From the NCBI GenBank assembly GCA_003246895.1, contig QKCL01000053.1, positions 1 to 44,983 on the forward strand: a stretch of 44,983 nt of DNA, in the 5' to 3' direction. The DNA is from Spirochaetota bacterium. GTDB lineage: Bacteria > Spirochaetota > UBA4802 > UBA5550. Below the pieces are notes generated by a model. That model had not been told where the DNA came from, ran no database searches, and saw only the letters and a list, made by a program, of their open reading frames with translations. A program made the translations under genes and the position numbers. Positions 2,233 through 9,163 of this stretch are shown piece after piece. The stretch's first letter is position 1, and every line of letters starts with the position of its first letter.

Positions 2233-2272
2233 TTGACAAAACAATCCCGCAAATGTAAGGCTACATGATAAT
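2233..2272 (+). promoter_or_regulatory. candidate promoter of the aromatic operon
   Basis: A perfect TTGACA lies at 2233-2238, after the receptor gene and before the leader ORF. The -10 is uncertain: TAAGGC at 2256 has normal spacing but poor sequence, whereas GATAAT at 2267-2272 has good sequence but 28-base spacing. The position fits transcription of the leader ORF at 2302. Confidence 0.35.
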
Positions 2273-2301: not shown

Positions 2302-2400
2302 ATGACTGTAACAACAAATGCATATCTTAGTCTCTTTGACCTGAAGCAGAACAACTTCAGCTATTTTTATTTTTTTAGAAGCGGACATATTGATATGTAA
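2302..2400 (+). CDS. Phe/Tyr-rich leader peptide of the aromatic operon
   Basis: A 32-codon ORF (ATG to TAA) between the candidate promoter and the terminator ahead of aroF. Residues 19-25 read F-S-Y-F-Y-F-F, with four Phe and two Tyr in seven codons, and Tyr8 and Phe12 lie upstream. A weak GGA ribosome site lies five bases before the ATG. A perfect 6-bp hairpin (CTGAAG/CTTCAG, 2341-2360) directly precedes the aromatic codons, and a second one (ACATAT/ATATGT, 2385-2398) abuts the stop codon. By analogy with the enterobacterial pheA leader, ribosomes would stall here when charged Phe- or Tyr-tRNA is scarce. The role is inferred. The ORF and its composition are read directly from the sequence. 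Confidence 0.68.
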   Translation: MTVTTNAYLSLFDLKQNNFSYFYFFRSGHIDM

Positions 2401-2427
2401 CGAGTTCTCGTCATACTTATATAGTAG

Positions 2428-2464
2428 AAAAAGCCCTTTGATGAACTCAAAGGGCTTTTTTTTT
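2428..2464 (+). terminator. intrinsic terminator acting as aromatic operon attenuator
   Basis: The stem AAAAAGCCCTTTG / CAAAGGGCTTTTT (13 bp) with a 7-base loop is followed by a run of Ts to 2464, between the leader ORF and aroF. GAGTTC (2402-2407), immediately after the leader stop codon, is complementary to GAACTC (2443-2448) in the terminator loop and base. A ribosome finishing the leader would cover it. A ribosome stalled on the Phe/Tyr codons would leave it free to interfere with the terminator. A longer, conventional antiterminator stem was not found. Confidence 0.8.
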
Positions 2465-2498: not shown

Positions 2499-3335
2499 AT
2501 GAAAAACCTTAAATTAGTAAAAATCCAGGAAGGGCATGAAAAAACCCAGTTCAAGGTCGGAGATATCACCTTCGGAAAGGATTTTGTCGTCATTGCAGGT
2601 CCCTGCGGTGTTGAAACAGAAGAACAGACAGTGAAGACTGCAGAAGCGGTAAAAGCCGGCGGCGGCCATATGCTCAGAGGGGGGGCATTCAAACCAAGAA
2701 CCTCTCCCTACGATTTTCAGGGGCTTGGTCTTAAAGGCTTAAAAATTCTCGAAAAGGCAAAACAGAAAACCCATCTCCCCATTGTGACAGAAGTAATAGA
2801 CCCGAGAGACGTCACATGGGTATGTGAATACGCAGATATTCTCCAGATCGGTGCAAGAAACATGCAGAACTTCTCCCTCCTCAAAGAAGTGGGAAAAGCG
2901 AATAAACCCGTTCTGCTTAAAAGAGGAATGTACTCAACTTTACGTGAATGGCTTAACTGCGCTGAATACATTCTAGCCGAAGGAAACCCCAATGTAATTT
3001 TATGTGAACGAGGAATAAGAACATTTGAAACCTATACAAGAAATACCGTTGACCTCAGCATAGTTCCGGCAATCAAAGAACTCACTCACCTGCCGGTTGT
3101 TGTTGACCCATCTCACGGAACAGGAAAGCTGAGCCTCATAGAACCCATGAGTCTTGCTGCAGTTGCCGCAGGAGCGGACGGTCTTATTCTTGAAGTACAC
3201 ATCAATCCATGTGAAGCAAAGAGCGATGCAGACCAGCAGCTCACCCCTGAGCAGTTCAATAATATAATGAAAAAAGTATTGAAACTTCAGAAATTCATGA
3301 GTGAAAATATCTTCCAGGCTTCGGAGGGAAAATAA
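2499..3335 (+). CDS. aroF: 3-deoxy-7-phosphoheptulonate (DAHP) synthase, type I-beta
   Basis: Condenses phosphoenolpyruvate and erythrose 4-phosphate to DAHP, the first step of the shikimate pathway. Visible motifs of the DAHPS/KDO8PS TIM barrel are AGPC, the [12 protein letters not shown] loop, [26 protein letters not shown] and EVH. The start at 2499 is chosen because GGAG at 2489-2492 sits six bases upstream; the in-frame ATG at 2487 has no ribosome site. At 278 residues it has only about 25 residues before the barrel, so it lacks the N-terminal ACT-like or chorismate mutase domain that confers feedback inhibition in some relatives. Control is likely at the leader/attenuator just upstream. 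It is the first structural gene of the operon and abuts aroB. Confidence 0.95.
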
Positions 3336-4388
3336 TTGAAGGAAATTCAGATTCGACTAGAAAACAGAATTTCCACTGTCAGGGTTGGAGGGTCCATTAA
3401 TGAATTGCCCGAACTTGCCCCACCTGAAAAAACAATAATTGTAACAGATGAAAATCTGAACAGACTCTACCATGAAAAATTTTCAGGATACAGAGTCATT
3501 GTAATCGGAACAGGCGAAGGCATAAAGACAGTCAATACAGTGGAAGAGATTACCTCAAAGATGATTCAGTACGGAGCAGACCGAAGCTCTTTCCTGGTCG
3601 CTGTTGGAGGAGGGATCGTATGTGACATTGCAGGTTTTGCAGCCTCAATATTCATGAGAGGCATAAGATTCGGATTCATCTCAACATCAGTACTCTCCCA
3701 GGTCGATGCAAGCGTAGGCGGTAAAAACGGCGTAAATCTCGGGGGTCTAAAAAACATGCTGGGTGTTTTTAATCAGCCCGATTTCGTCATCTGTGATCAC
3801 GAAATGCTGTCCACACTGCCTGATGTTGAATATACAAACGGCCTCTCGGAAGTAATAAAATCAGCATGTCTCGGCGACACACAATTTTTTGAATTTCTGG
3901 AAGAAAACAAAAATCAGATTCTGGAAAAGGACATGGATGTAATTCACGAATTCATTAAACGTTCCGTCATGTTCAAGGCATCCATTGTTGAAGAGGATGA
4001 AAAAGAGTCCGGGATCAGAAAAATCCTCAACCTGGGCCATACAATCGGTCATGGTCTGGAAAAGATAAAATCAATACCGCACGGATTTGCAATTGCCGCA
4101 GGTATGGGCGCAGCCGCAGAATTTTCAGTAAAACTGAATCTGCTAAACAAGGACTGTGCAATAAGAATCATGTCTCTCATAGACAGCCTGGGTCTCGACA
4201 GCAACCTGAAGAACTTTGTTTCAGAAGAAAATATTGAAGAACTGATAACTGCCATTTCCAGTGACAAAAAAAAGCAGGGAGCTTCCGTAGATTTTATTCT
4301 TCTGGAAGATATAGGCAGGCCCGTAATAAAAAAAATCGAAATAACAAAATTGAGAGAACTTCTGGGTGATCTCTTGAATGGAGTTTAA
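3336..4388 (+). CDS. aroB: 3-dehydroquinate synthase
   Basis: Converts DAHP to 3-dehydroquinate, an NAD- and metal-dependent cyclisation in the cytosol. The 350-residue length is typical. The glycine-rich nucleotide loop VGGGIVCDIAGF, the segment around QVDASVGGKNGVNL, and the metal-binding LNLGHTIGHGLE with a later HG all match the family. The start is TTG immediately after the aroF stop codon, with GGAGG at 3323-3327 giving eight-base spacing; no ATG fits. Its placement directly after aroF with no gap suggests translational coupling. Confidence 0.95.
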   Translation: MKEIQIRLENRISTVRVGGSINELPELAPPEKTIIVTDENLNRLYHEKFSGYRVIVIGTGEGIKTVNTVEEITSKMIQYGADRSSFLVAVGGGIVCDIAGFAASIFMRGIRFGFISTSVLSQVDASVGGKNGVNLGGLKNMLGVFNQPDFVICDHEMLSTLPDVEYTNGLSEVIKSACLGDTQFFEFLEENKNQILEKDMDVIHEFIKRSVMFKASIVEEDEKESGIRKILNLGHTIGHGLEKIKSIPHGFAIAAGMGAAAEFSVKLNLLNKDCAIRIMSLIDSLGLDSNLKNFVSEENIEELITAISSDKKKQGASVDFILLEDIGRPVIKKIEITKLRELLGDLLNGV

Positions 4389-4389
4389 T

Positions 4390-5031
4390 ATGATATGTGT
4401 AAGTATAGCTGATATAGAAATTGACAAGGCACTTGAAATAATGTCACACTCCGAAATATCGGAAATCCGTCTGGACAGACTCAGATTCAATGATGAAGAG
4501 ATAAAAAGAATATTCTCTTCGGATGCTGTAACACTTGCCACATACAGACCCGTGGACAACGTAACAGACTCAATGAGAATGGGTGCACTCAAAAAGGCAA
4601 TCTCATACGGGGCGGACATGGTGGACATTGAGGTTGAAAACAGTGATGAATTCAAGAACGAGCTCATCTCTTTTGCAAAAGAACATAAATGCAGAGTCAT
4701 AATCTCATACCATAACTATGAAAAAACCCCAATGAGGAGAGAGCTTGAACAGGTAATTCAATGGTGCTTCGAAAGCGGTGCAGATATAGCAAAGGTCGCA
4801 TGCATGGCAAACTCAGTCCTTGACAGCGCGAGAATTCTGTCTCTCTATGATCAGGATAAAAAAATAATAGCACTGGCAATGGGGGAAGAGGGCAAGATCA
4901 CGAGAGTGGCGGCTCCGTTACTGGGATCACCCTTTACATTCGGTTCCATTGACGACACGAGAAAAACAGCTCCTGGACAGATAGAAAAAGAGAAACTTGA
5001 AAAAATAATTGATCTCATTAAGGAATCATAG
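4390..5031 (+). CDS. aroD: type I 3-dehydroquinate dehydratase
   Basis: Dehydrates 3-dehydroquinate to 3-dehydroshikimate through a Schiff base. Type I hallmarks are EIRLDRL near the N terminus, ATYRP, VDIEVE, the catalytic His in ISYHNYEKTP, the Schiff-base Lys in DIAKVACMA, and the C-terminal GSPFTFGS and TAPGQI segments. The start at 4390 has GGAG six bases upstream, inside the end of aroB; the upstream in-frame ATG at 4378 lacks such a site. The protein is 213 residues and ends after the dehydratase domain, so it is not an AroD-AroE fusion. Shikimate dehydrogenase is not encoded in the operon. Confidence 0.93.
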   Translation: MICVSIADIEIDKALEIMSHSEISEIRLDRLRFNDEEIKRIFSSDAVTLATYRPVDNVTDSMRMGALKKAISYGADMVDIEVENSDEFKNELISFAKEHKCRVIISYHNYEKTPMRRELEQVIQWCFESGADIAKVACMANSVLDSARILSLYDQDKKIIALAMGEEGKITRVAAPLLGSPFTFGSIDDTRKTAPGQIEKEKLEKIIDLIKES

Positions 5032-5040
5032 GAATCTCCC

Positions 5041-6288
5041 ATGATAAGAACCATATACAAATCAAAGATCTCCGGCTCCATTAAAGGCCCTTCATCCAAG
5101 AGCGAAATGCAGAGAGCCGTTGCGGCTGCACTCCTTGCTGAGGGCAGGACAACCATTGTCAATCCGTCGGACTGCGAAGACTCCCTGAGTTCCCTTGACA
5201 TGATCAAAAGACTGGGAGCGGAAGTAAAGGAGGATGCAGATTTCATAGAAATTGACGGCGGTTTCAATGTAAAAAACTCCACCATTGACTGTGGTGAATC
5301 CGGAACCTCTGCCAGAATGTTCACCCCCATTGTTTCCCTGAGCGGCAGTGAGATAACACTGACCGGTCATGGTTCCCTTCTCAAAAGGCCTGTATCTCTC
5401 ATTGAAGATTCATTGAGGCATCTTGGGATGGAGATTTCTTCAAACAACTCCATGCTTCCGGTAAGAGTATCATCAAGAATCAGGGGTGGTGAAACTACAA
5501 TTGATGCCGGGCTCAGCTCACAGTTTCTCACAGGCCTTCTCATGGCCCTGCCCTGCGCCGAAAATGACAGCATAGTACATGTGAACAACCTGAAAAGCAG
5601 GCAGTACATTGACATCACCATAAAAATACTGAAGTACTTCAATATAGAAATTGTAAATGATGACTACAGGAACTTCACAATAAGAGGTAACCAGAAATTT
5701 TCACCCTGCAAAGTTGAAATTGAAGGAGACTGGAGCGGAGCCGCATTCCTCCTCTGCGCAGGTGCAATAGCAGGAGATGTCACCGTCATGGGGCTTCAAA
5801 ACAATTCAGTTCAGCCCGACAGGGCATTCATGGACGCGCTTATCATGGCGGGAGCAGATGTAACAGTAGAAGGCAGCTCCATAAGAGTTAAAAATTCTGA
5901 ACTCAATGCATTCGACTTTGACGCTACTGACTGCCCTGACCTGTTCCCTCCCCTTGCTGCACTTGCAATGTTCTGCGAAGGAGAAACAAGACTGAAAGGA
6001 ACCCACAGGCTGACCCATAAGGAAAGCAACAGAGCACTCACAATTAAAGAAGAATTTGAAAAACTCAACGGCCGGGTGCTTCTCGAAGGAGATTACATGA
6101 TTATTTCAGGTTCAGAACTCACTGGCAATACAATCGACCCCCACAAGGACCACAGAATAGCCATGGCATGTTCAGTGGCCGGATTGAAATGTTCTTCACC
6201 GGTAGTCATAACCGATTCTGAATGTGTAAATAAATCATACAGTACCTTTTTTGAAGATATGGCTAAACTAGGAGCGGATATAAAATGA
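5041..6288 (+). CDS. aroA: 3-phosphoshikimate 1-carboxyvinyltransferase (EPSP synthase)
   Basis: Transfers enolpyruvyl from PEP to shikimate 3-phosphate. The 415 residues carry GPSSKSEMQR (substrate-binding Lys, Ser, Arg) at the N terminus, the PEP-loop ESGTSARM, SSQFLTGLLMALP, GDWSGAAF, the catalytic Asp region DCPDLFPPLAALA, and DPHKDHRIAMA near the C terminus. The PEP loop has Gly-Thr, not the Ala variant of the CP4-type enzymes. AGGA at 5030-5033, overlapping the aroD stop codon, serves as ribosome site. Its stop codon overlaps the aroC start as ATGA. Confidence 0.95.
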   Translation: MIRTIYKSKISGSIKGPSSKSEMQRAVAAALLAEGRTTIVNPSDCEDSLSSLDMIKRLGAEVKEDADFIEIDGGFNVKNSTIDCGESGTSARMFTPIVSLSGSEITLTGHGSLLKRPVSLIEDSLRHLGMEISSNNSMLPVRVSSRIRGGETTIDAGLSSQFLTGLLMALPCAENDSIVHVNNLKSRQYIDITIKILKYFNIEIVNDDYRNFTIRGNQKFSPCKVEIEGDWSGAAFLLCAGAIAGDVTVMGLQNNSVQPDRAFMDALIMAGADVTVEGSSIRVKNSELNAFDFDATDCPDLFPPLAALAMFCEGETRLKGTHRLTHKESNRALTIKEEFEKLNGRVLLEGDYMIISGSELTGNTIDPHKDHRIAMACSVAGLKCSSPVVITDSECVNKSYSTFFEDMAKLGADIK

Positions 6289-7265
6289 ATCAATACGGAA
6301 ACAGTTTTCGGATCTCAATTTTCGGAGAATCCCATGGAAACGGAGTCGGAATTACAATTGACGGCTGCCCTCCCGGGATACCCTTTAAAGAGGAAGATAT
6401 GCACGCTGATCTCCTCAGAAGAAAATCCGGAAAAAAAGGAACAACACCCCGCATTGAATCCGATGAACCCGAAATACTTAGCGGAGTATTTAACGGGACC
6501 ACAACCGGTGCGCCTGTTGCCATCCTGTTCCGGAATGAGAACACCCGGTCAGGGGACTATTCAAAACTGGTGGAAATGCCCAGACCCGGACATGCTGACC
6601 TTACTGCAATGCAGAAATACAACGGATACAATGACTACCGGGGAGGCGGGCATTTCTCAGGCAGAATAACCCTTGGAATTGTTGCGGCAGGAGTTCTTGC
6701 AAAAAAGATAATGTCAGGGATTTCCTTCAGCTCTGAGATCCTTGAAATCGGCGGAGAAAAAGAATACAGTGAAATTCTCGAAAAGGCAATAAGGGAGGAG
6801 AATTCCCTGGGCGGCATTGTTGAAGTAAAGGGAACCGGAATCCCGGCTGGTCTTGGAGACCCTTTCTTTTATTCCTTCGAATCAGCCATAAGCCATCTGG
6901 TGTTTTCAGTTCCTGCAGTAAAGGGTATTGAATTCGGTGCAGGCTTCCAGGCTGCGCGGATGACCGGTTCCCAAAACAATGATCCAATCATATCCTCACA
7001 GGGAGAGACATCATCAAATAATTCCGGAGGAATAAACGGAGGAATCTCAAACGGCAATGAACTTGTTTTCCGTGTTGCGGTGAAACCAACCGCAAGCATA
7101 GGAAAACCCCAGACAACAATGAATCTGGCAAAAGACAAACTCGATACTCTTCAGATAGGCGGAAGGCATGATGCCTGTATAACCCTGAGAACACCGGTTA
7201 TTTTTGAGGCATGTGCCGCCATAGCGGCCGCAGATCTGTATTTAATGAATAAATCAATCAACTAA
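6285..7265 (+). CDS. aroC: chorismate synthase
   Basis: Anti-elimination of phosphate from EPSP to give chorismate, using reduced FMN. The N-terminal signature FGESHGNGVG, the GHADLTAMQKY segment, the basic glycine-rich loop DYRGGGHFSGR and the C-terminal GGRHDACITLR are all present. At 326 residues it is somewhat shorter than the E. coli enzyme, as in several non-proteobacterial lineages. The ATG overlaps the aroA stop codon by four bases, and AGGAG lies at 6270-6274. No flavin reductase domain is present, so reduced FMN must come from elsewhere. Confidence 0.95.
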   Translation: MNQYGNSFRISIFGESHGNGVGITIDGCPPGIPFKEEDMHADLLRRKSGKKGTTPRIESDEPEILSGVFNGTTTGAPVAILFRNENTRSGDYSKLVEMPRPGHADLTAMQKYNGYNDYRGGGHFSGRITLGIVAAGVLAKKIMSGISFSSEILEIGGEKEYSEILEKAIREENSLGGIVEVKGTGIPAGLGDPFFYSFESAISHLVFSVPAVKGIEFGAGFQAARMTGSQNNDPIISSQGETSSNNSGGINGGISNGNELVFRVAVKPTASIGKPQTTMNLAKDKLDTLQIGGRHDACITLRTPVIFEACAAIAAADLYLMNKSIN

Positions 7266-7284: not shown

Positions 7285-8352
7285 ATGAATCTTGACGAAA
7301 TAAGAAACAATATTGATCAGATCGACGCAAAAATTCTTAAGCTGCTCAATGATAGAATGGAGCAGGCTCTGCTTTCAAAAAAATTCAAAACAGAGATTGA
7401 GGACACAGAAAGGGAGAACCAGCTTCTGGAAAAAGTCAAGAACAGCCCCAACGCCCTTCTTGACGGCAATCTTACAGAAACACTTTATAAAAACATAATC
7501 ACATGGAGTAAAAAACTTCAGGCAAAAAACCATATGGTAATAGGATTTCAGGGCGAACACGGGGCGTACAGTGAAGAAGCTGCCAGAACATGGGACAACA
7601 AGCTCGTAACAATCCCATGTACAACATTTAACGATGTCTTTGCAGGAGTAGCCTCGGGAATGTTTGACTACGGTATTGTTCCCGTTGAAAATACCCTGGG
7701 AGGACTCGTCGGATCTGTAAATGAACTTCTCACAAATACAGATCTTAAAATAATCAGTGCCATTGACATGCCCATACACCACAGTCTGCTCATGACCCCC
7801 GGAACGGACCACCGTGAAATACGGGAGGTCTACTCGCATTCACAGGCCCTGTCCCAGTGCAGAAGATTCCTTTCAAGAAACAACCTATCACTTGTTCCGT
7901 TCTATGACACTGCAGGGGCAGCAAAAATGATAAGTGAAACAAGGCCAAGAGGAGCAGCTTGCATAGCAGGAAAATTCGCAGCGGAACTCTACGGCCTTGA
8001 GGTGCTGAAGGAAAACATAGAGGATTCAAATACAAACCGGACAAGATTTCTTATTCTTTCAAAGAACATCGAGCCTAAACCGGGAAATAAGTGTTCAATC
8101 ACATTCAGAACTGCACACAAAGCCGGAACGCTTTTTGAAACACTTGAACTATTTGCCAAAGCCGGCATAAACCTTACAAGAATTGAATCTATACCTGATG
8201 AGCCGGGCACATATTCATTTTTACTGGATTTTACAGGCTCGGACAAGGATGAAAATGTCATAAAAACAATTAAAAAAGCTGAGGAGTCTACATCAGATTT
8301 CAAACTTCTCGGATGCTATAATGAAATAATTGTGGAGAACAAAAAAATATGA
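7285..8352 (+). CDS. pheA: bifunctional chorismate mutase/prephenate dehydratase (P-protein)
   Basis: Makes phenylpyruvate from chorismate in two steps. Residues 1-85 are an AroQ-type chorismate mutase helical domain. Residues about 88-265 are prephenate dehydratase, with GFQGEHGAYSE, VPVENTLGG, HSQALSQC and the catalytic NRTRF. Residues about 270-350 are an ACT domain with HKAGTLFE and RIESIP, corresponding to the Phe-binding GALV and ESRP motifs, so allosteric inhibition by Phe is expected. AGGAG is seven bases before the ATG. The 3' end overlaps tyrA by four bases. Confidence 0.95.
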   Translation: MNLDEIRNNIDQIDAKILKLLNDRMEQALLSKKFKTEIEDTERENQLLEKVKNSPNALLDGNLTETLYKNIITWSKKLQAKNHMVIGFQGEHGAYSEEAARTWDNKLVTIPCTTFNDVFAGVASGMFDYGIVPVENTLGGLVGSVNELLTNTDLKIISAIDMPIHHSLLMTPGTDHREIREVYSHSQALSQCRRFLSRNNLSLVPFYDTAGAAKMISETRPRGAACIAGKFAAELYGLEVLKENIEDSNTNRTRFLILSKNIEPKPGNKCSITFRTAHKAGTLFETLELFAKAGINLTRIESIPDEPGTYSFLLDFTGSDKDENVIKTIKKAEESTSDFKLLGCYNEIIVENKKI

Positions 8353-9137
8353 ACTCTCCGATAAAAAAAATATTCATCCTCGGAGCGGGCCGTATGGGAA
8401 TATGGCTCGCCGAAGAGCTTTGTCACGATTTTGAAGTTGCAGTATTTGACAAAGACCCTAAAAAGCTGAAGCACTTCTTCAACGTAAAGAGGTTTCTTAA
8501 TATTGAAGAGGTACAAGACTTCAAGCCGGATCTTATAATAAATTGTGTGAATCTTAATATCACCCAGGATGTATTCCGCCGGGTTATACCTCTACTGCCG
8601 GAAACATGCATTCTCAGCGATATCGCTTCGGTCAAAAACAATCTCCATGAGTTCTATGAAAGCACTAACATGCGCTATGTATCAACACACCCCATGTTCG
8701 GGCCCACTTTCGGCAATGTACGGGACCTGAGCAATGAAAGTGCCATTATAATTGAGGAATCTGATAAGGATGGAAAAGAGTTCTTCAGAAATTTCTATGC
8801 AGCGCTGAGTATTAAAATTTATGATTACAGCTTTCAGAAACATGATGAGGTCATAGCCTATTCTCTCTCAACTCCCTTTGCTTCATCAATTGTTTTCGCA
8901 GCATGCATGAAAAAAATTGACGCACCTGGAACAACCTTTAAAAAACACATGACCATTGCCAGGGGGCTTTTATCGGAGGATGAGTATCTGATTTCAGAAA
9001 TTCTTTTCAATCCCAATACGCTTGCCCAGATTGAAAAAATAAATTCCCAGCTGACCTATCTGACACACATAATAAAAGATAAAGACCATGAAGAGATGAA
9101 AAAACTGATTGAAAAGCTGAAGAAAAACATAGAATAA
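8349..9137 (+). CDS. tyrA: prephenate dehydrogenase
   Basis: Oxidative decarboxylation of prephenate toward tyrosine. The N-terminal Rossmann motif GAGRMG (about residues 12-17) is followed by DKDPKK, where the Asp after the second strand suggests NAD preference. Substrate-site motif THPMFGP is present. The all-helical C-terminal domain ends at 262 residues, with no ACT domain, unlike many Gram-positive TyrA proteins. It is the last gene of the operon, overlapping pheA by four bases, and is followed at once by a strong terminator. Confidence 0.9.
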   Translation: MNSPIKKIFILGAGRMGIWLAEELCHDFEVAVFDKDPKKLKHFFNVKRFLNIEEVQDFKPDLIINCVNLNITQDVFRRVIPLLPETCILSDIASVKNNLHEFYESTNMRYVSTHPMFGPTFGNVRDLSNESAIIIEESDKDGKEFFRNFYAALSIKIYDYSFQKHDEVIAYSLSTPFASSIVFAACMKKIDAPGTTFKKHMTIARGLLSEDEYLISEILFNPNTLAQIEKINSQLTYLTHIIKDKDHEEMKKLIEKLKKNIE

Positions 9138-9163
9138 AAAAGGGCTCCTCATGGAGCCCTTTT
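9138..9163. terminator. bidirectional terminator between tyrA and rlpA
   Basis: GGGCTCC / GGAGCCC stem with a 4-base TCAT loop, flanked by A and T runs on both sides. It lies one base after the tyrA stop codon and just beyond the end of the convergent rlpA, so it can serve both strands. Confidence 0.9.

Follow-up and report, generated by a model that had tools for sequence, protein, structure and literature searches.

The window, i.e., the whole 44,983-nucleotide stretch of DNA analyzed here, harbors seven closely packed genes in the order aroF-aroB-aroD-aroA-aroC-pheA-tyrA, the identities of which were assigned by Pfam (Table 1). These genes are preceded by a short open reading frame (ORF), referred to as the leader ORF, and by an intrinsic terminator. 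The operon content matches the original prediction, where the common pathway as well as both the Phe and the Tyr branches were proposed to be governed together. The trp genes are absent from the operon, and Trp codons are absent from the leader, where codons for Phe and Tyr are present, i.e., the composition of the operon fits that of the leader.

The start of aroF is placed at the ATG at 2499 rather than at that at 2487, because the relatives described below begin at the former position with an ATGAA-AATCTTAAA-type sequence and because GGAG precedes it. With this start, 34 nt separate the T-run of the terminator from aroF, which corrects the 38 bases given originally. In the relatives, a gene encoding a fused shikimate dehydrogenase/shikimate kinase (431 amino acids) is located between aroD and aroA (L027:10532-11827); this gene is missing from the window operon (window 5031-5041).

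Table 1. Features of the leader region and the aromatic operon, in window coordinates
Feature	Position	Strand	Remarks
TTGACA, probable -35 element	2233..2238	+	Equivalent place in L016, L017, L022, L027
Leader peptide ORF	2302..2400	+	32 codons and TAA; kept in six relatives
P1 hairpin, CTGAAG/CTTCAG, inside leader ORF	2341..2360	+	Hairpin at equivalent place in all relatives, other sequence
Putative regulatory codons Phe-Ser-Tyr-Phe-Tyr-Phe-Phe	2356..2376	+	F/Y interchange among relatives
Capture segment (predicted antiterminator 5′ strand), GAGTTCTCGTCA	2402..2413	+	Begins 2 nt past stop codon; GAGTTTTATC at equivalent place in relatives
Intrinsic terminator, 14-bp stem, 5-nt loop, nine T	2428..2464	+	Compensatory double changes in relatives
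Terminator apex TGATGAACTC (loop and apical stem bases), predicted partner of capture segment	2439..2448	+	
aroF, DAHP synthase	2499..3335	+	PF00793, E 3e-80; start by alignment with relatives
aroB, 3-dehydroquinate synthase	3336..4388	+	PF01761, PF24621
aroD, type I 3-dehydroquinase	4378..5031	+	PF01487
aroA, EPSP synthase	5041..6288	+	PF00275
aroC, chorismate synthase	6285..7265	+	PF01264
pheA, chorismate mutase/prephenate dehydratase with ACT domain	7285..8352	+	PF01817, PF00800, PF01842
tyrA, prephenate dehydrogenase	8349..9137	+	PF02153
Operon-end terminator, terminator-like on both strands	9138..9163	.	

Leader ORF and Its Conservation

The leader ORF encodes the peptide MTVTTNAYLSLFDLKQNNFSYFYFFRSGHIDM, followed by a TAA stop codon. 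Its length of 32 codons, its end at 2400 and the F-S-Y-F-Y-F-F run, which occupies codons 19−25 (bases 2356-2376), are as described in the original prediction. Among 875 small ORFs in the window, no other has six or more Phe or Tyr codons within a stretch of seven, and random sequence with the same dinucleotide make-up yields 0.15 such ORFs per 45 kb; six-codon F/Y runs are too common to serve as a genome-wide signature. The Shine-Dalgarno sequence of the leader ORF is weak (GGAAA in the window) and is not evident in several of the relatives; a good candidate for a -10 element matching TTGACA was not found in the window. A hairpin, denoted P1, is located directly 5′ of the aromatic run and overlaps its start, and a hairpin of differing sequence is found at the 5′ end of the run in each of the seven genomes compared here. 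Together, P1 and the U-rich Phe/Tyr codons (window 2341-2376) resemble a weak terminator or a pause site.

Six other genomes of the window's family with a close aroF, retrieved by means of the window aroF, are referred to as the relatives (Spirochaetia UBA5550, UBA5763, Nc150P4bin23, HGW-Spirochaetae-5, AS06rmzACSIP_338 and ADurb.Bin218). All six harbor the leader (e.g., MKNITKHTRNSFVLAQPKAFSFGFCYFYFYFYGYYISA and MKSLVKQIAAAQYASGPQSLNYGYYYFYFYGSHISA) in a common layout, composed of an aromatic run, five to eight codons, the stop codon, GAGTTTTATC, a variable spacer and a terminator, the loop and apex of which are the reverse complement (GATAAAACTC) of the post-stop GAGTTTTATC. The aromatic run and its distance from the stop codon are common to the window and the relatives, and little else is; F and Y swap among the leaders, the codons alternate between TTT and TTC and between TAT and TAC, and Trp is found in none of the leaders of the seven-genome group. 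The original prediction was tied to the presence of the ORF and the aromatic run in relatives, and to an alignment of leader regions in which aromatic codons are conserved and their flanks vary. This pattern is what was found: in each of the six relatives, the aromatic run is retained, together with the post-stop segment and a terminator with a loop complementary to that segment, and the flanking residues vary.

The remaining genomes of the family harbor a more distant DAHP synthase, or none was detected. In a search of 393 Spirochaetota genomes with an RNA model (R1), the element was restricted to these seven, and it is found in a single copy in its own genome. Four additional, weak R1 matches in the same 393 genomes were rejected, being ordinary terminators or unrelated sequence without an aromatic leader.

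The histidine-kinase-like gene found upstream on the same strand (57-2207) ends 220 bases ahead of the terminator, which could suggest that the terminator merely ends this gene and that the short ORF is present by chance. This explanation is hardly credible; it is contradicted by the conservation in seven genomes of the ORF, of the aromatic run and of the distance between the stop codon and the terminator (31-34 nt), by the TTGACA-type promoter element located in between, and by the lack of any similar run in the other small ORFs of the window. A second alternative is that the leader peptide itself stalls the ribosome in a TnaC-like manner, with the free amino acids (Phe or Tyr) being sensed in the exit tunnel in place of tRNA charging. 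A partly conserved K-S-F-x-F-G motif before the aromatic run in close relatives points in this direction, but the motif is lacking in the window, it overlaps P1, which could account for it at the RNA level, F and Y swap freely, and little is constant outside the aromatic run. Furthermore, a feedback operon needs induction by starvation rather than by the free amino acid, and TnaC-like sensing is therefore considered very improbable.

Predicted Pairing between the Post-Stop Segment and the Terminator

The strong intrinsic terminator noted originally after the leader is formed by 14 perfect pairs between arms at 2428-2441 and 2447-2460, with the loop TGAAC and nine T at 2456-2464. The complementarity between GAGTTC (2402-2407), located just after the stop codon, and GAACTC (2443-2448) in the terminator, on which the original prediction was based, also holds, but the best pairing comprises 10 rather than 6 bp. 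In this better register, 2402-2413 pairs with 2439-2448 with a 2-nt bulge (-10.3 kcal/mol; energy matched by 12 of 500 shuffles), i.e., in RNA, GAGU[UC]UCGUCA with UGAUGAACUC, which corresponds in DNA letters to GAGT(TC)TCGTCA with TGATGAACTC. The window pairing is that of the register of the relatives plus the 2-nt bulge. An interaction with the loop, as opposed to a classical 2:3 stem, had been proposed, and the pairing indeed takes the loop and apical stem pairs (10-12 bp); antiterminator pairing with the 5′ arm of the terminator, as in the classical 2:3 subtype, was not found.

In all seven genomes, the segment begins 1-4 nt past the stop codon and is complementary to the terminator apex. 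In the relatives, GAGTTTTATC pairs with GATAAAACTC or GATGAAACTC, and in ADurb.Bin218 CGAGTTTTATCG pairs with CGATAAAACTCG. The resulting helix, referred to as the capture helix, has energies of -10.2 to -17.6 kcal/mol over the seven genomes, each matched by 0-12 of 500 dinucleotide shuffles, and 97% of the cells in the helix alignment are paired, compared to 33-51% in registers where the partner was shifted by 1-3 columns. Formal covariation in the capture helix was not significant (203 of 500 shuffles), in part because one row is displaced by a single base in the MAFFT alignment; six of the ten pairs are invariant. Individual changes include a C-G pair in the window where the others have U-A or U-G, an extension of the helix to 12 bp in ADurb.Bin218 accompanied by the replacement of U-A with C-G in the terminator stem, and a change of the apex from CTC to CGC in AS06rmzACSIP_338, with a matching change in the capture segment and one bulged G. 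In the terminator stem, three pairs display a compensatory double change, and the covariation score was reached by none of 500 shuffles. A universal 1:2 helix was looked for and rejected; such a helix is significant in just one of the seven genomes (ADurb.Bin218, i.e., L027); in the window it is borderline.

Leader peptides can also act on translation, a mode of action proposed for the LEU element of Actinobacteria (PMC1262725), and control could in principle be exerted on the translation of aroF rather than on transcription. Here, the hairpin has the canonical form of a terminator, including nine T, and the aroF Shine-Dalgarno sequence, found ~25 nt downstream, is not involved, which makes translational control quite improbable.

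Folding in the Presence of a Ribosome

The RNA exposed behind the RNA polymerase was folded for six sequences after removal of the part covered by a ribosome. When the ribosome was placed on the aromatic run, the capture helix comprised mostly 9-12 pairs in all six sequences, at a stage where the 3′ arm of the terminator was not yet fully out. With the ribosome at the stop codon, the capture helix was reduced to 0-2 pairs, and the terminator zipped once the arm emerged (6/6 sequences). The logic of the original prediction, where a ribosome finishing the leader hides GAGTTC and a stalled one exposes it, is reproduced by these calculations, according to which the capture segment would be free under a stalled ribosome, masked by a ribosome at the stop codon, and able to pair with terminator sequence. 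In the folding, the capture helix also forms without any ribosome, and untranslated transcripts should therefore read through.

When folding is allowed to reach equilibrium, the complete terminator (-17 to -21 kcal/mol) is favored over the capture helix in each of the states. Because the terminator wins whenever the whole 3′ arm is out, control must be kinetic; this applies to attenuation in general, but the energy gap is large here. The stability of the terminator in every state would also be consistent with an alternative where attenuation by stalling is correct, but where the capture segment forms a loop pseudoknot with the terminator and control stems from P1, from pausing, or from a contact between the ribosome and the hairpin; sterically, a fully formed lower stem is conceivable next to a loop that is paired in part. 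However, the pairing enters the bases of the stem and extends over 12 bp in ADurb.Bin218, which exceeds the capacity of a closed loop. In addition, pairing precedes transcription of the 3′ arm in the folding, and the position of the segment exactly under a ribosome at the stop codon is conserved. Control with the capture segment as a loop pseudoknot is on these grounds judged unlikely, and capture of the apex ahead of hairpin formation is preferred. The lower stem and a loop with some of its bases paired may also be present together, as a pseudoknot.

Proposed Mechanism

Sequence comparison and modeling together point to ribosome-mediated transcription attenuation by capture of the terminator apex, to which a probability of roughly three in four is assigned. 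It is very likely that control is ribosome-mediated in some form, the element is most likely a genuine Phe/Tyr attenuator, and translation of the leader very probably decides whether the terminator is formed. Transcription would proceed from a promoter near 2233, the charging of tRNA-Phe and tRNA-Tyr would be sensed, and the target would be the whole chorismate-to-Phe/Tyr operon. When Phe and Tyr are ample, the ribosome would get to the leader stop codon and cover the capture segment, such that the terminator forms. When Phe or Tyr is short, the ribosome would wait on the aromatic run and leave the capture segment free to pair with the apex as the latter leaves the RNA polymerase; the hairpin with a captured apex could then not nucleate in time, and transcription would enter aroF. 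P1, a possible RNA polymerase pause hairpin, would keep the polymerase and the ribosome in step.

With a probability only slightly better than even, the element represents a minimal type of attenuator, i.e., one where a post-stop segment of 10-12 nt would capture the apex, where a 1:2 pre-emptor is lacking and where the ribosome at the stop codon alone would permit termination. Such a form would have replaced, or been derived from, the three-segment form of sister spirochaete families described below. The compact form poses the question of whether a ten-base capture of a terminator apex suffices as a switch.

Comparison with Other Attenuators

The trp, pheA and his leaders of E. coli are classical ribosome-mediated attenuators. 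The window element shares with these a leader ORF with cognate codons, a terminator before the first gene of an operon that makes those same amino acids, and a segment predicted to be masked by the ribosome at the stop codon and to pair with the terminator upon stalling. In contrast to the classical systems, the partner of this segment is the apex, i.e., the loop and 2-3 stem bases on each side, rather than the 5′ arm, and no 1:2 helix by which untranslated transcripts would be turned off is consistently present. The element would also govern the common pathway and the Phe and Tyr branches at once. The read-through predicted for untranslated transcripts sets this design apart from the textbook 1:2 design. 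Ribosome-mediated transcription attenuation as such is already known; the variant part is apex capture without a consistent pre-emptor, a design of which a described case was not found in the open literature.

The general function of the element is like that of the Rfam amino-acid leader families and the T-box. Neither the window nor the relatives tested matched any family of Rfam 15 at gathering score, including the T-box and the Phe, Trp, His, Thr and Leu leaders; the best weak match was to Thr_leader (29.5 of 55 bits) and covered the post-stop region and terminator only. Such elements thus escape Rfam. The LEU element of actinobacterial leuA likewise has cognate codons in its leader peptide, and a pseudoknot was proposed for it, but its codon run pairs with the leuA Shine-Dalgarno sequence and its model includes no terminator, unlike the window (PMC1262725).

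In sister families, as well as in further members of the window's family, a DAHP synthase gene is preceded by a textbook three-segment Phe/Tyr/Trp attenuator, where TAGCTTTTGC or a similar sequence is located at the stop codon (L103-L109, L111-L113, L009, L011). In the sister families, which belong to the same order, the aromatic leaders (SYYFWFYYFY, YFYFWYYYY and similar) precede a different DAHP synthase. Here, the 1:2 helix has an energy of -11 to -29 kcal/mol and survives sequence change (e.g., CATCATCAGCAAAAGCTA/TAGCTTTTGCTGATG and GCATACTACGCCGGCTA/TAGCCTGTGTAGTATGC), the 2:3 helix extends into the 5′ arm of the terminator, and 3:4 is the terminator itself. Most of these leaders include Trp codons, as would be expected if only the shared first step were controlled; at L166, the case examined, the DAHP synthase gene stands by itself. 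The sister leaders and that of the window are alike in the kind of target gene, in logic and in having an aromatic run shortly before the stop codon, and they differ in that the former have a 2:3 pairing into the 5′ arm, a 1:2 helix and, mostly, Trp codons.

Leader-peptide attenuation, the classical form of which was described originally as best known in Proteobacteria, is not exotic in this lineage, given the textbook versions in the sister families. In a 2010 survey, leader-peptide systems were described as known only in Proteobacteria and Actinobacteria, and Firmicutes were added (PMC2965389). Leader-peptide attenuation in spirochaetes was not found in the open literature, although the main comparative survey, a different one from the same year (Lopatovskaya et al. 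2010, cited in PMC4833913), may list some cases. The elements described here would extend a textbook control mechanism to Spirochaetota in an unusually compact form, with two aromatic-leader architectures in one order of an uncultured Spirochaetota lineage, and Trp leaders too.

Leaders at Other Loci

An aromatic leader within 450 nt on the coding strand was found at 30 of 75 DAHP synthase loci from many phyla, compared to 3 of the 75 when the opposite strand was read and to 17 of 666 random stretches. In the window's family, Trp-rich leaders precede trpE in many genomes; about ten have such leaders (WW to WWWW) with terminators before trpE or another trp gene (L172, L177, L181, L182, L184, L185, L187, L189, L193, L233). 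A His leader upstream of hisG was not found in this family. The window's own genome has no Trp-rich leader before trpE but harbors a perfect 20-bp palindrome, TGTTTCTAnnnnTAGAAACA, in the promoters of trpE and a trpD-like ORF (G000:C51:7330-7349, L235; G000:C40:6148-6167, L229). Of 20 family genomes, 13 contain the palindrome, and the backwards control gave no matches. The palindrome is probably the operator of a Trp repressor.

Several contigs labeled as Micrarchaeota or archaeon contain an aromatic leader (FFSFSYRYQENHE* and similar) before a bacterial-type aroF (L032, L043, L044, L045, L047, L054, L057, L065, L090); these contigs may be bacterial and misbinned. At deltaproteobacterial aroF loci (L059, L071, L072, L087, L088), the leader ends with FGRFFFSFRSVHP; its last codons seem able to pair with the 5′ arm of a CCCCGGGTGGAC terminator, and a second terminator often comes next. 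Finally, termite-gut Spirochaetaceae (L073, L082) harbor a very short aromatic leader, MIIRKCTYFYYFYRTLYL, where TTGTGAT in the stop region pairs with the terminator apex ATCACAA, which is possibly an independent case of apex pairing.
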